DNA of 64,000 nt, taken from Gammaproteobacteria bacterium (lineage in GTDB: Bacteria > Pseudomonadota > Gammaproteobacteria > Eutrophobiales > Eutrophobiaceae). Below, piece after piece: positions 7,680 through 53,420 of the stretch. Where the stretch lies: NCBI GenBank assembly GCA_004297165.1, contig SCUJ01000005.1, positions 1-64,000 on the forward strand. Direction: 5' to 3'. Within the stretch, counting starts at the first letter, position 1. Every line of letters begins with the position of its first letter. Below the pieces are notes generated by a model. It was not told the origin of the DNA. It saw nothing but the letters and a program-made list of their open reading frames with translations, and made no database searches. The position numbers and the translations under genes were made by a program.

Positions 7680-7751
7680 GTAGGGTGGGCACGCCGTTCG
7701 TGCCCACGCGGTAAATCATGTTGGGCATCATTTCATTCAGCCCAACCTACG
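7680..7751. repeat. Composite hairpin repeat (GTGGGCAC + TTGGGC units)
   Basis: Two palindromes in tandem: GTAGGGTGGGCAC...GTGCCCACGCGG (7680-7711) and GTTGGGCAT...AGCCCAACCTACG (7719-7751). Both families recur elsewhere in the window (10.96, 13.1, 13.25, 18.8 and 53.4 kb). The outer edge GCGTAG supplies the stop codon of the diguanylate cyclase gene at 7747-7749. Confidence 0.85.
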
Positions 7752-10996: not shown

Positions 10997-11041
10997 AGGT
11001 TGCTATTTATATTCCACATAAACTTCACCTCTCCGACATCT

Positions 11042-12413
11042 TCAATAACTCAATCCCGCCGCGAACACGAGATCCACGGAGGTCTCTCCGCCCATCGTCA
11101 CGGCCCCGGCGTTCAGATAACCGAACGGGTTCGTCAGGCCGGATCGCACCAGCGCCCCGCCGGGGTCCGAATAACCGAGCAGTGCGCTGCACCACACCCG
11201 TTCGCTCGGGTACCAATCGGCGATCAGGCTCCACTCGTTCGCGAGCGGCCCGCCCGGCCCGGACACGAGGCGCGTTTGGAAATATTGCAACCGCAACTTC
11301 ACTTGCGCATGCGGCCAGAACCCGGCCTCGGCGCGCGCGATGCGTGAATTCGTGCCGAAGAGGATCCAGTCGATCTGATTGCCGAGGTACCACTTGCCCC
11401 AGTCGGAGAAACCCTGCGCGAAGGGCGTGAAATCCTCCGAGTAATACACGTAACCGATCTCCGCGAAGGGCTGGAAACGCGCGTTTTCCGGTCGCCAGGC
11501 AAGCTCCGCATGCCAGCCCTGTTCGCTCAGGCGCTGCCCCGGCGTCGTCACGTAATAGGGATTGCGGCCCGTGCCGAACTCGCCCGCCCACTCGCCGCTC
11601 ACGGACCAGCCCGACCCGAAGGGCAGCGGCGCCGCGCAGGGAGACGATCCACATATCGTTGTCGAGGGCGCTGTGCGATTCCCGGCGAAACAGCCCGGCA
11701 GTGAGATCGATCCCGCCCGCGGTTTTGCGCGACAGCTCCGCGCCGCCCAACCAGCCGTTCCATTCGCCGCCGCCGTCCCAGGTCGGGTGCATGCGATAGG
11801 CGAAGGCGTCGAGATGCCCGAGCGCCGTGTCGGTCTCCAGGCGCACCGCATCGAAGCTCTTGCGCGGGTTGTGATACACGGCCTGCGGGTGGTGTGCGTG
11901 GTAACCGTCGTAGACGCCGTCGCCGAACAGGAACTGCGAGCCGATCGCAATCGGTTGACGGCCGAGGGTGACCTTGAACGCGGGATCGGCGCTGTTCGCG
12001 TATTGCAGATACAGGGTATCGAAGGCGAACTCCGGGTCGTTGCCGGGGCGTGGCGTCCCCGGCGGAGAGAATGCTGGTGCGGATCCGCTGCCGTAGGGGT
12101 CGCGCCCGCTGGTCCGGAGCGCGAGTCCGACCGCTTCCAGCGCGAATCCACCCCGTTCGACACGCCCGCCGAGGCGCGCGCTGGTCTCCATCCAGGCACG
12201 ATCCTCCGTGGAATAAAACGGGTTCGATTGCCGGATCAGATAATGCGTAACGCTCGCGATCGGCTGGAACGGGGGCGCCGCGGCCTCCTCCGCAACGGCA
12301 GTAATCCAGGGCAGGCCGAGCGCGGCGGCAATGAAGATCTCGCGCGCTAAATATATTCCCCCTCTCCCCCTACCCCTCGGCAACTGCTCCCGGCGTTGCA
12401 CTACCTCCTGCAT
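11042..12413 (-). pseudogene. Outer-membrane porin-like beta-barrel protein, frameshifted
   Basis: About 455 residues over two frames. The first frame carries a signal-peptide-like stretch (IFIAAALGLPWITAVAEE) and barrel strands such as FKVTLGRQPIAIGSQFLFGDG and AVRLETDTALGHLDAFAYRMHP. The second, from about 11630 to 11042, continues with SGWSVSGEWAGEFGTGRNPYYV and ends in the hydrophobic LVFAAGLSY typical of barrel C-termini. The switch needs one base skipped near 11625-11640. The text resembles alginate-export/DUF1302-like porins, but the family is not certain. No standard start precedes the signal peptide; the first ATG in frame (12413) lies in a CCCTCTCCC-type repeat, which seems to have overwritten the original 5' end. 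Confidence 0.65.
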
Positions 12414-12484
12414 CCATGCAGTCGTCCCCCGCGTGGGGGGAGGGGAGATTCTGTACCCGCGTGGGCACAAACGACGCGCCCATA
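12358..12484. repeat. CCCTCTCCC-type repeat plus degenerate GTGGGCAC hairpin
   Basis: A C-rich arm (CCCCCTCTCCCCCTACCCC) and a G-rich arm (GCGTGGGGGGAGGGGAG) flank about 50 bases, followed by a worn GTGGGCAC hairpin (12457-12484). It covers the 5' end of the porin gene and lies upstream of the toxin-antitoxin pair. Confidence 0.65.
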
Positions 12485-12569
12485 AGAGTATCTTTCCCGC
12501 CGCAAGAACGAATGGACACCCGGACACGCCTTCATTAACATCGTGCGGGACGCCATACGAGAAATCCCC

Positions 12570-12806
12570 ATGAGCCACTTGACCCTCTCGATCAGCCCGG
12601 AAGAACAGGCTCTGCTCCATCGCCTTGCGGAAACCAACCAGAGCAGCGATGCGGAACTGGCCGCCATCGCGCTGCGTGAATACCTGAAATTCGAGGCCGC
12701 GCAGATCAGGAAGATCCAGCGCGGACTTGCCGCCGCCAACGCCGGCGATTTCGCCGGAGACGCCGAAGTCGAGGCCTTTTTCGCCAGGTACGGCGGGGAA
12801 GATTGA
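12570..12806 (+). CDS. RHH/CopG-type antitoxin
   Basis: 78 residues. The N-terminus MSHLTLSISPEEQALLHRLAE fits a ribbon-helix-helix DNA-binding strand and helix. The C-terminal half (AANAGDFAGDAEVEAFFARYGGE) resembles toxin-binding tails of ParD/RelB-like antitoxins. The ATG at 12570 is preferred to an upstream ATG at 12543 because it gives the canonical short strand. The stop overlaps the toxin start by one base (TGATG), so the two are coupled. It probably represses its own promoter and neutralises the ParE-like toxin. Plus-strand genes inserted in a minus-strand block suggest acquisition. Confidence 0.85.
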   Translation: MSHLTLSISPEEQALLHRLAETNQSSDAELAAIALREYLKFEAAQIRKIQRGLAAANAGDFAGDAEVEAFFARYGGED

Positions 12807-13096
12807 TGCAGGTTCGCTGGACGCGCCCGGCGCTCTCCGATCTTGCTGAAATCCACGACTACATTGCCGCCGACAATCCCGTCGCGGCAAGGGCGGCAAT
12901 CCGCCGCATTCGGCAGGCCGCGAATACCCTGGGTAAGCATCCGACGCTGGGCCGCACAGGCCGGGTTCCCGATACGCGGGAACTTGTAAGCGGGCGGCTG
13001 CCTTATGTGATTGCTTATCGCATTGCCGAACATGAAGTCGATATCCTTGCGGTAATTCATGGCGCGAGGCGTTGGCCGGATTTCCTGCCAGGTTGA
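12806..13096 (+). CDS. RelE/ParE-family toxin
   Basis: 96 residues: QVRWTRPALSDLAEIHDYIAADNPVAARAAIRRI and the ending LPYVIAYRIAEHEVDILAVIHGARRWP are diagnostic of the RelE/ParE fold. ParE members poison DNA gyrase and RelE members cut mRNA on the ribosome; the sequence looks closer to ParE. ATG at 12806 overlaps the antitoxin stop; a TTG one codon earlier is possible. Full length for the family, with no sign of decay. Confidence 0.92.
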   Translation: MQVRWTRPALSDLAEIHDYIAADNPVAARAAIRRIRQAANTLGKHPTLGRTGRVPDTRELVSGRLPYVIAYRIAEHEVDILAVIHGARRWPDFLPG

Positions 13097-13109
13097 GATT
13101 GATATTATT

Positions 13110-13323
13110 TCCGCGTGGGCACAAACGGCGTGCCCACCCTACGAAATTTATTCTCCCTCTCCCTTGAGGGGAGAGGGCCGGGGAGAGGGTGATCATTCCC
13201 ACGTCCCCCTCTCCCCCTACTCCTCCCCCGCGCGGGGGGGAGGGGATCAAACGTAGGTTGGGCTGAATGAAATGATGCCCAACATTTATTCCGCGTGGGC
13301 ACAAACGACGTGCCCACCCTACG
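13110..13323. repeat. Cluster of hairpin repeats between toxin gene and receiver gene
   Basis: Three units: a GTGGGCAC hairpin (13110-13142), a CCCTCTCCC-type unit with GAGGGGAGAGGG and CGCGGGGGGGAGGGG arms (13149-13246), and a TTGGGC hairpin joined to another GTGGGCAC hairpin (13251-13323). The joined pair has the same order and spacing as at 7680-7751 (opposite strand) and 18776-18848, so it behaves as one composite element. It fills the convergent intergenic space. Confidence 0.8.
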
Positions 13324-13342
13324 AAATTTCCATTTTCTCGGC

Positions 13343-13723
13343 TCATTCCTGCTTTTCCTCCGCCGCCAGCAACCGTTCCACCGTTTGCAGGAACTCGCGG
13401 TAACGGATCGGCTTGACGACATAGCCATTGCAGCCGGCGGCGCGCATCCTCTCGTCGTCGCCCTTCATGGCAAAGGCGGTGAGGGCGATCACCGGGATCG
13501 CCGCTGTGTCCGGGTCGGCCTTGAGGACGCGGGTGGCCGAGAGTCCGTCCATGCCGGGGAGCTGGATGTCCATGAGCACAAGGTCCGGCCGCTCCTTCCG
13601 GACGATTCGCAGGCCCTCATCGGCGTTGTCGGCGATCATGGATTTGTGGCCGCCCTTCTTCAGCATCGCCTGGGTCAGGCGCCGGTTGGTTGCGTTGTCT
13701 TCGATAATGAGTATCCTCGCCAT
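13343..13723 (-). CDS. Stand-alone receiver protein
   Basis: 126 residues, a single receiver domain: acidic pair in IIEDN, acceptor Asp in LVLMDIQLPGMDG, Lys in VVKPI. The ATG at 13723 has AAGGAG upstream and lies two bases after the hybrid-kinase stop, so the pair is co-transcribed. It is a likely acceptor of phosphate from that kinase. The upstream extension of the frame to 14032 is only a shadow of the kinase. Confidence 0.92.
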   Translation of the reverse strand: MARILIIEDNATNRRLTQAMLKKGGHKSMIADNADEGLRIVRKERPDLVLMDIQLPGMDGLSATRVLKADPDTAAIPVIALTAFAMKGDDERMRAAGCNGYVVKPIRYREFLQTVERLLAAEEKQE

Positions 13724-13725
13724 TT

Positions 13726-16386
13726 TCACAACTCCTTTACATCGCCGAGCGCCCGTCGCACCTCGGTCATAAAACTCTCGCGGTCGAAGCCGGATTTTTC
13801 GAGGATCCGCTCGACAAAACCGTTGAGGCGATTTCTGTCTTGCCGCGTAATCTGCTTCGCCGTCAGGATGATGATCGGCACGCCGCTGGTCTCCGGCCGT
13901 CGCTTGATCGCCTCCACCACAGCGAAGCCGTCGATGCTCGGCATCATGAGGTCCAGGATGATGAGGTCCGGCGTCATCTGGCCGACGCTGGCCAGGGCCT
14001 CGCGTCCGCCATAGGCGCGCACGACCTTGCAATTGCGGCCCTTGAGTTGTTGCGCCACCAGTTCCACCGCCTTCGGGTCATCGTCCACCACCAGCACGGT
14101 AAACCTGGCCCGGCCCTTGGCCCGCTTTATCCCCAACCCTTCGATCGCCTCCAGCAGGGCCGCGCGCTCGACGGGTTTTTGCAGGACCTGCTTCGCGCCG
14201 AGGGCGAAACCGCGGTCCCGGTCCGCCAGCACCGAGGCGATCACCACGGGGATGCCCGCGAGGGCCGGGTCGGACTTCAGTCGTTCCAGGATCTCCCAGC
14301 CGCCGAGCTTCGGCAGCAGGAGGTCGAGGGTGATGAGGTCCGGGCGTTCGCGCCTGATCAGCGCCAGGCCCTCTTCTCCATCTGCGGCGCGCAGCACGCG
14401 GAAACCATCGGCGTCGAGGGCGAGGCGCAGGAGTTCCGCCGCCTGGTCGTTGTCTTCGATGATCAGGGCGAGGGGTGGTTCTACTTCAGAGGTCTCTTCC
14501 CGCGTGGGCACGGACGACGTGTCCACCCTGCTTGTCTCTCCCTGCGTGGGCACGGAAGACGTGCCCACCCTACGCGGATCTTCCGCAGTCTCGTCCCGCG
14601 TGGGCACAGACGACGTGCCCACCCTACTGGTTTCTTCCTGGGGGGAGGTTGCGGGTTCAGCGATGGCCGGCGCCGTGCGCCAGGGGATCCAGCAGATGAA
14701 GGTCGAACCGCGGCCCGGCGCGCTCATCACGCCGATCGCGCCGCCGTGCAGTTCGGCGAGGCGGCGGGTGAGCGCCAGCCCGAGTCCGGTGCCCTCGTAG
14801 CGGCGCGCCAGAGAGGCATCGAGCTGGGTGAAGCTCTGGAACAGGCGGCCCAGATCGGTCTCGGAGATGCCGATGCCGGCGTCGCTGACGGCGACCTCGA
14901 GAAATTCCGCGTAATTATTGTCGGGCAGGGGCAGCATGCGCGAGGCCATGCCCTCCGGCGGATCGAGTCGCACCGCGTCCCTCCCGACGCGCCGCGCGAC
15001 GACCCGCACCTCACCGTCCGCGGGCGAAAACTTCACCGCGTTGGAGAGGAGGTTGTAGAAGATCTGTTTGAACTTGCGGGTGTCGGCCTGGATCTCGCAA
15101 GGCTCCGGCGGCGGCGCCAGCGTGAGGCGCACGCGATGCGCCATCGCCTTCTCCCGCAGCATGGTCAGGCCCGACTGGAGGACGCTGGCGATGTCCATCG
15201 GCTCGGTCTCCAGGGTCATGCGTCCGGCCTCGATCTTGGAGAGGTCGAGGATGTCGTTGATGAGCGCAAGCAGATGCGTGCCGGAGTCGAAGATATCCAC
15301 GACGCAGGTCTGCTGCTCCGGGGGGATCTCGCCCATGACGCCGTCCTTCAGCAGCTCGGAGAAGCCGATGATCGCGTTCAGCGGCGTGAGCAGCTCGTGG
15401 CTCATGTTGGCGAGGAACTCGGATTTGAGCCGGGTGGCCGTTTCCAGTTGGGCGTTCTTGGCGCTGATCTCGTTGTTGCTCTCGCGCAATTGGCGCTCGG
15501 TGCGCTTCAAATCGGTGACATCCATGTTGACGGCGATGCCGCCGATGATCCGCCGTTCGGCATCGCGCAGCGGCATCGCGGTGTTGCGGATGAACTTGCG
15601 GCTGCCGTCGAAGCACTGGATCTCCGCCTCCTGGTTGCGGATCGTTTCGCCGGTCTTCAAGGCGACCGCGAGCGCCCATTCGTCGGCGGCGATCGCCCGG
15701 CCGTCATCCAGCCGCCAGCCGAGATATTCGCCATAGCCGTCCAGGCCGACGTAGCGGCTCCCGCCCCAGATCTCGTGGCCGGCGGGATTGATCCGGGTGA
15801 TGCTGCCTTGCGCGTCGCAGACGAATACGCCGACCGGCAACAGGTTGAGGATCTGCTGGAGCAATTCCTCGCGCGCCTTCAACGCCTCCTCCGCCTCCCG
15901 GCGCTGTTTCACCTCCTGGCGCACGAAGTAGTTCAGATAATACAGATTGACGAAGACCCCGACCTTGGCCTTCAGGATCTCCGGCGCGATGGGGGAGACG
16001 ATCCAGTCCACGGCCCCGGCCCCGTAGCCGCGCGCACGGTCGTCCTCTGCGGCGGATTCGGCGGTGACGAAGATGATCGGCGTATAGGCCGTGCGCGGGC
16101 GGCTATGGATGAGCTGCGCGGTCTCGTAGCCGTCCATGGTCGGCATGCGCACATCGAGCAGGATAAGGGCGTAATCGCGCGCGAGCAGGAGACGCAGGGC
16201 CTCGCGCCCGGAATGCGCGGTGGTCACTTTGATCCCCAGCTCGGCGATGACCGCCGCCAGCGCCGTCGCCTTGTCCGGCATATCGTCCACCACCAGTACG
16301 CCGGCCCGCTCGGCCTCGGGCACCTCGAAGCGCAACGGGACGCCGACGCCGCTGAGGGCGGGGATTTCAACCTTGGGTAATTTCAT
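13726..16386 (-). CDS. Hybrid histidine kinase REC-PAS-HisKA-HATPase-REC-REC
   Basis: 886 residues, no membrane helix. The order is an N-terminal receiver (about 28-145, acceptor Asp78 in LILLDVRMP), coiled coil, PAS (about 195-300, VGVFVCDAQGSITRINPAG), HisKA (NMSHELLTPLNAIIGF), HATPase (N-box NLLSNAVKF, G1 DAGIGI, G2 GTGLGL), a linker at about 580-635, and two receivers (LITLDLLLPKLGG and LIILDLMMPSIDG). The linker is made by three in-frame copies of the GTGGGCAC repeat, giving RVGTSSVPTR-like peptides. Start ATG at 16386 behind GGAG. It sits between cheB upstream and a receiver downstream and is likely the hub of that block. Confidence 0.93.
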   Translation of the reverse strand: MKLPKVEIPALSGVGVPLRFEVPEAERAGVLVVDDMPDKATALAAVIAELGIKVTTAHSGREALRLLLARDYALILLDVRMPTMDGYETAQLIHSRPRTAYTPIIFVTAESAAEDDRARGYGAGAVDWIVSPIAPEILKAKVGVFVNLYYLNYFVRQEVKQRREAEEALKAREELLQQILNLLPVGVFVCDAQGSITRINPAGHEIWGGSRYVGLDGYGEYLGWRLDDGRAIAADEWALAVALKTGETIRNQEAEIQCFDGSRKFIRNTAMPLRDAERRIIGGIAVNMDVTDLKRTERQLRESNNEISAKNAQLETATRLKSEFLANMSHELLTPLNAIIGFSELLKDGVMGEIPPEQQTCVVDIFDSGTHLLALINDILDLSKIEAGRMTLETEPMDIASVLQSGLTMLREKAMAHRVRLTLAPPPEPCEIQADTRKFKQIFYNLLSNAVKFSPADGEVRVVARRVGRDAVRLDPPEGMASRMLPLPDNNYAEFLEVAVSDAGIGISETDLGRLFQSFTQLDASLARRYEGTGLGLALTRRLAELHGGAIGVMSAPGRGSTFICWIPWRTAPAIAEPATSPQEETSRVGTSSVPTRDETAEDPRRVGTSSVPTQGETSRVDTSSVPTREETSEVEPPLALIIEDNDQAAELLRLALDADGFRVLRAADGEEGLALIRRERPDLITLDLLLPKLGGWEILERLKSDPALAGIPVVIASVLADRDRGFALGAKQVLQKPVERAALLEAIEGLGIKRAKGRARFTVLVVDDDPKAVELVAQQLKGRNCKVVRAYGGREALASVGQMTPDLIILDLMMPSIDGFAVVEAIKRRPETSGVPIIILTAKQITRQDRNRLNGFVERILEKSGFDRESFMTEVRRALGDVKEL
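14500..14626. repeat. Three in-frame copies of the GTGGGCAC hairpin inside a kinase gene
   Basis: Copies at 14500-14529, 14542-14573 and 14596-14626, each CGCGTGGGCAC...GACGTG(C/T)CCACCCT, spaced about 42-54 bases. All are in the same orientation and phase, and the gene reads through. They encode RVGTSSVPT(R/Q) or RVDTSSVPTR, separated by acidic spacers, between the ATPase and first C-terminal receiver. Confidence 0.9.
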
Positions 16387-18775: not shown

Positions 18776-18848
18776 GCGTAGGTTGGGCGGAATGAAATGC
18801 AGCCCAACATTTGTTCCGCGTGGGCATAAACAACATGCCCACCCTACG
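18776..18848. repeat. Composite TTGGGC + GTGGGCAC hairpin repeat
   Basis: GCGTAGGTTGGGCGG...AGCCCAACA followed by TTCCGCGTGGGCAT...ATGCCCACCCTACG. Same composite arrangement as at 13251-13323, with compensated changes in the second stem (GGGCAT/ATGCCC), which argues that the hairpin is what is conserved. Confidence 0.85.
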
Positions 18849-19066: not shown

Positions 19067-25630
<6,564 letters not shown>

Positions 25631-53382: not shown

Positions 53383-53420
53383 AGTAGGTTGGGCGAAATG
53401 AAATGTAGCCCAACATTTTA
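53383..53420. repeat. TTGGGC hairpin repeat with decayed GTGGGCAC partner
   Basis: AGTAGGTTGGGCGA...TAGCCCAACATT, followed by a worn remnant of the second unit (about 53424-53450). Same composite as at 13.25 and 18.8 kb. Confidence 0.7.

Follow-up and report, generated by a model that had tools for sequence, protein, structure and literature searches.

Three in-frame REP elements in the interdomain linker of a gammaproteobacterial hybrid histidine kinase

Repetitive extragenic palindromes that lie within genes have been known from other bacteria since 2013, when GTAG REPs were reported inside genes of several species and the products were named "REP-decorated" proteins (BMC Genomics 2013; PMC3733652). 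As described in the main text of that paper, over half of the inserts are dimers or groups encoding 20-30 aa, clusters encoding 43-82 aa occur in Thauera and Rickettsia conorii, and the insertions are perhaps neutral, being in flexible linkers or loops (PMC3733652). An older parallel is provided by the Rickettsia palindromic elements (RPEs), palindromic repeats that have likewise entered protein-coding genes without shifting the frame, so that they are read as extra peptide sequence (PMC10969869). Here we describe an array of three REP copies inside a hybrid histidine kinase gene of a gammaproteobacterium (contig SCUJ01000005.1), which lies in a stretch of 64,000 nt that was analysed as a whole (the window; unless stated otherwise, coordinates refer to it). 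It shares with the intragenic GTAG REPs the RAYT-type GTAG palindrome in a coding region, the clustering and the proposed linker or loop site, whereas histidine kinases go unmentioned in the main text of the 2013 paper (PMC3733652). Compared by description, RPEs measure about 150 bp and frequently lie within genes (PMC10969869), whereas the element here has 32 nt and is nearly always found outside them. With REPINs and RAYT systems (PMC3116915), this genome shares fixed-spacing inverted pairs, extragenic spread and a RAYT gene flanked by copies, but the only RAYT found here is broken, and the kinase copies are direct tandem repeats rather than the inverted REP pair with spacer that makes up a REPIN, although such pairs do exist elsewhere in the genome. 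The kinase array is a clear but ordinary further example of what was described in 2013.

The kinase gene and its three REP copies

The gene and the copies, numbered in coding order, are as follows:

13726-16386, minus strand: hybrid histidine kinase gene, 886 aa (Pfam matches, single open frame and homologues)
14596-14627, minus strand: REP copy 1, GTAGGGTGGGCACGTCGTCTGTGCCCACGCGG, reading RVGTSSVPTR, 26/26 consensus positions
14542-14573, minus strand: REP copy 2, GTAGGGTGGGCACGTCTTCCGTGCCCACGCAG, reading RVGTSSVPTQ, 25/26 consensus positions
14500-14531, minus strand: REP copy 3, GCAGGGTGGACACGTCGTCCGTGCCCACGCGG, reading RVDTSSVPTR, 24/26 consensus positions, with one stem base and the GTAG tag decayed

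The kinase is encoded by one stop-free frame with the domain order REC-PAS-HisKA-HATPase_c-linker with REP array-REC-REC, and its Pfam matches (three Response_reg, HisKA, HATPase_c and PAS) are present on both sides of the array; homologues share this order from PAS/HisKA onward to the C-terminus. The array lies in the stretch between the end of the ATPase, near residue 570, and the start of the second receiver at residue 640. A sequence-only reading of this DNA had described an otherwise intergenic element that recurs three times in tandem within the gene, all in one phase, as RVGTSSVPTR-like peptides between the ATPase and a receiver, and this description was borne out by the consensus scores, the peptides and the flanking Pfam domains. 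The frame is accepted as real because domain homology continues on both sides of the array, and on such sequence evidence 13726-16386 is a real gene; translation through the array is likely, given the intact frame and the receiver domains downstream. In the alignment, the kinase retains the catalytic His330, the N and G boxes (ATP-binding motifs) and two residues of receiver 2, the phospho-acceptor Asp688 together with Lys737. CheR and CheB genes lie upstream, and a single-receiver gene lies downstream on the same strand.

Elsewhere in the window, a signalling gene region at 21866-25277 contains twelve tandem repeats of 276 nt (92 codons), whose length suggests a putative poly-HAMP array. The contig starts with about six telomere-like copies of CCCTAAC (1-45), possibly an assembly or sequencing artefact.

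The REP element and its association with RAYT genes

The element is 32 nt long, GTAGG + GTGGGCAC / GTGCCCAC + GCGG, and its copies were scored against the consensus GTAGGGTGGGCACGNNNNNNGTGCCCACGCGG at 26 positions, with at least 22/26 required. The core pattern has 56 matches per strand in the 3.5-Mb genome vs 0 for the reversed pattern used as a control, and chance is therefore excluded. Within the genome stretches that were fetched, 57 copies were counted; 11 adjacent pairs among them are inverted, with spacings of 44-52 or 129-146 nt, and the opposite inverted order does not occur among the 57. As in the definition of the GTAG REP super-family in the main text of the 2013 paper (PMC3733652), the element is a short palindrome (20-40 bp) with a stem of about 6-9 bp and GTAG outside the stem at one end, and it has a high copy number, a mostly intergenic location and frequent inverted pairs. 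Target-site duplications were sought at other REPs, and flank similarity there was no higher than at random positions. Near the kinase gene, two extragenic copies match the consensus throughout:

13111-13142, minus strand: extragenic REP copy, 26/26 consensus positions
13291-13322, minus strand: extragenic REP copy, 26/26, in a composite inverted element with a second palindrome at 13253-13283

The window has additional copies at 7680, 10964 and 18816, and a degenerate one at 12457. The second palindrome, GTAGGTTGGGCNNNATGAAATGNNGCCCAAC, stands head to head with the REP at 7680-7750, 13253-13322 and 18778-18847, so placed that these composite elements carry GTAG at both outer ends, and a fourth copy of it at 53384 has no REP partner. 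Between REP copies, at 12570-13096, are a ParE-family toxin gene and, in the antitoxin position, a small upstream gene with no Pfam match. In another part of the genome (L137, G000:C13:922900-929000), two REP copies with the second palindrome between them (L137:2948-3130) stand in frame at the beginning of an OEP (outer-membrane efflux) gene; these REPs are again in the RVGTxSVPT phase, lead directly into a lipobox (LLFLLSAC) and might encode a portion of the signal peptide.

The genome has one Y1_Tnp match, a decayed RAYT remnant (L140:12351-12590) that covers the N-terminal half, keeps the DHLH motif and then runs into stop codons, and it has REP copies on both sides. Among 369 genomes of the class, 14 (this one included) carry the same REP, and in G327, G220, G378 and G387 intact Y1_Tnp (RAYT) genes lie about 0.1-0.3 kb from it; in G327, for example, the gene at C4:213850-214179 sits between REP copies at 213748 and 214367. 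A Y1_Tnp gene flanked by REPs, the arrangement of a RAYT-REP system (REPtron), is thus found as a remnant here and as intact genes in these four genomes. Judged by these features, the element is a REP of the GTAG class associated with RAYTs.

Insertion into the linker and probable tandem duplication

The three copies and their spacers make up the inferred insertion, delimited by the spacers, the homologues and the linker length:

14488-14625, minus strand: putative insertion of 46 codons, residues 588-633, consisting of three REPs and spacers with near-copies of the 9-mer GAAGAGACC

Its boundary was set against homologues at about 40-50% identity rather than against close strains or species with an empty site. 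The closest homologues (L039/L010, and L064 from Rugamonas rubra, 40% identity over the whole alignment) align on both sides of the array, and their linkers are shorter, unrelated and lack the repeat; an array of this kind, inside an ORF with recognisable domains and missing from homologues, is an intragenic (codogenic) REP. The distance from GTGLGL to the second receiver is 108 residues in the kinase and 62 after subtraction of the 46-residue insert, with a median of 64 in 86 homologous kinases. Length alone is not diagnostic of insertion, however, because the Rugamonas linker is itself fairly long. A search of the 369 genomes with the 53-aa repeat peptide returned this gene and two weak matches with in-frame stops, and nothing comparable. 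The earlier proposal that a repeat insertion had turned into an interdomain linker is thus supported by homologues without the repeat and by extra length equal to the array, and when homologues were aligned, as had been suggested for a check, neither of the two closest had an unrelated linker as long as this one. The contig of L039 is labelled Klebsiella pneumoniae, a species name that looks wrong: its gene scores equally with L010 and appears to be the same one, from a genome in the family to which the window belongs.

Insertion into the linker therefore stands, with one refinement: a single insertion followed by tandem duplication is probably closer to the history than three separate insertions. 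The copies are direct repeats at spacings of 54 and 42 nt, and the evidence for the order of events consists of short 9-mers in the spacers and flank (GAAGAAACC, GACGAGACT, GGAGAGACA and GAAGAGACC), which match one another at 6-8/9 positions; at least 6 matches to GAAGAGACC occur at about 1% of window sites and 3% of in-phase gene sites. Duplication is favoured because the 9-mer that flanks the array, GAAGAGACC, is nearly repeated in the spacers. Three independent insertions into the same linker would give the same end product by another history, and they would fit the multicopy nature of REPs and the CGTAG end, common in extragenic copies, which is kept in copy 2 and absent from copies 1 and 3. 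This is nevertheless unlikely, as the flanking 9-mer recurs in the spacers and, among the 57 copies, no direct pair less than 60 nt apart occurs outside the kinase array.

Reading frame, linker structure and function

An in-frame position constrains little by itself and is only mildly special: the 32-nt element can be crossed in five of its six frames without a stop in 53-57 of the 57 copies, and the TAG frame alone is usually closed. The shared phase of the three copies is moreover fixed by the first, because both spacings are multiples of three. In the same window, a spurious frame (11025-13346, minus strand) likewise runs through three copies in a single phase, giving VGWARRLCPRG-like peptides, and a common phase in a long frame therefore proves nothing alone. 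For the kinase, coincidence of frame was rejected, as the domains run on past the array at both ends. Other mid-gene copies, in long open frames of nine stretches (L120, L121, L124, L125, L127, L136, L139, L142 and L199), were judged by eye to be upstream of a start or noncoding-looking and were set aside. Among the 57 copies found, only those of the kinase array and of a single leader peptide appear to be coding.

AlphaFold predicts no secondary structure for residues 574-634, with a pLDDT of about 30 compared with about 90 in the domains on either side. The input alignment was shallow (11 rows) and covered the N-terminal receiver poorly, and since that receiver scores low too, the low pLDDT is weak evidence of disorder; the model is consistent with a flexible unstructured tether, without being proof of one.

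These observations suggest the following course of events. A GTAG-type REP, a short palindrome that would have been moved by a RAYT transposase, may have inserted once, in an open frame, in the linker from the ATPase to the second receiver. Tandem duplications of a unit of about 42 nt (the REP and some 10 nt of flank), one of them longer by 12 nt, would then have produced the three copies and the 46 added codons. The reading frame could have been retained since every step was a multiple of three and the linker tolerates changes in length. The encoded peptide would be an unstructured tether from the catalytic core to the receivers, most likely near-neutral. As a whole, we consider this account, from a single REP insertion through tandem duplication to an in-frame and near-neutral linker expansion, very probable.

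Alternatively, the linker may be under functional selection, with its length or its regular Thr/Ser/Pro-rich peptide tuning phosphotransfer from HisKA to the receivers and the copy number expanded for it. The retention of three in-frame copies, the merely synonymous differences at two of the element's four variable codons and the intact catalytic and receiver residues fit such selection. However, the copies are already diverging at the peptide level (G to D, R to Q), homologue linkers are unrelated and shorter, and with no second genome carrying the array among 369 of the class, conservation has no comparison; we regard selection of this kind as distinctly improbable. The array might also work as RNA or DNA, through ribosome pausing, mRNA stabilisation or effects on gyrase or transcription, with the peptide incidental. 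Roles as RNA or DNA elements are proposed for extragenic REPs in the main text of the 2013 paper (PMC3733652), and most of the stem is kept in the copies, but copy 3 has lost one stem base, and the folding stability of the array is unexceptional given its composition (z -1.37, with 20/200 shuffles as stable). An RNA structure signal was rejected on this ordinary stability, and such a role seems very improbable.

Thus, the best reading is that a linker which was flexible to begin with tolerated a near-neutral lengthening, and a function or benefit specific to the repeat is only hypothetical. One speculative idea is that REP copy number is a tunable length module, in which slippage between 42-nt units would alter the reach between core and receivers and with it the signalling output, producing differences from strain to strain, although we hold this very unlikely.

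The array shows cleanly how a transposase-associated palindrome can be taken up into a protein as linker sequence, and the steps of its probable duplication can still be read. With it a signalling kinase joins the sorts of protein in which REPs are known, leaving the picture of 2013 unchanged, and it offers a simple test case for the weight of linker length in hybrid kinases.
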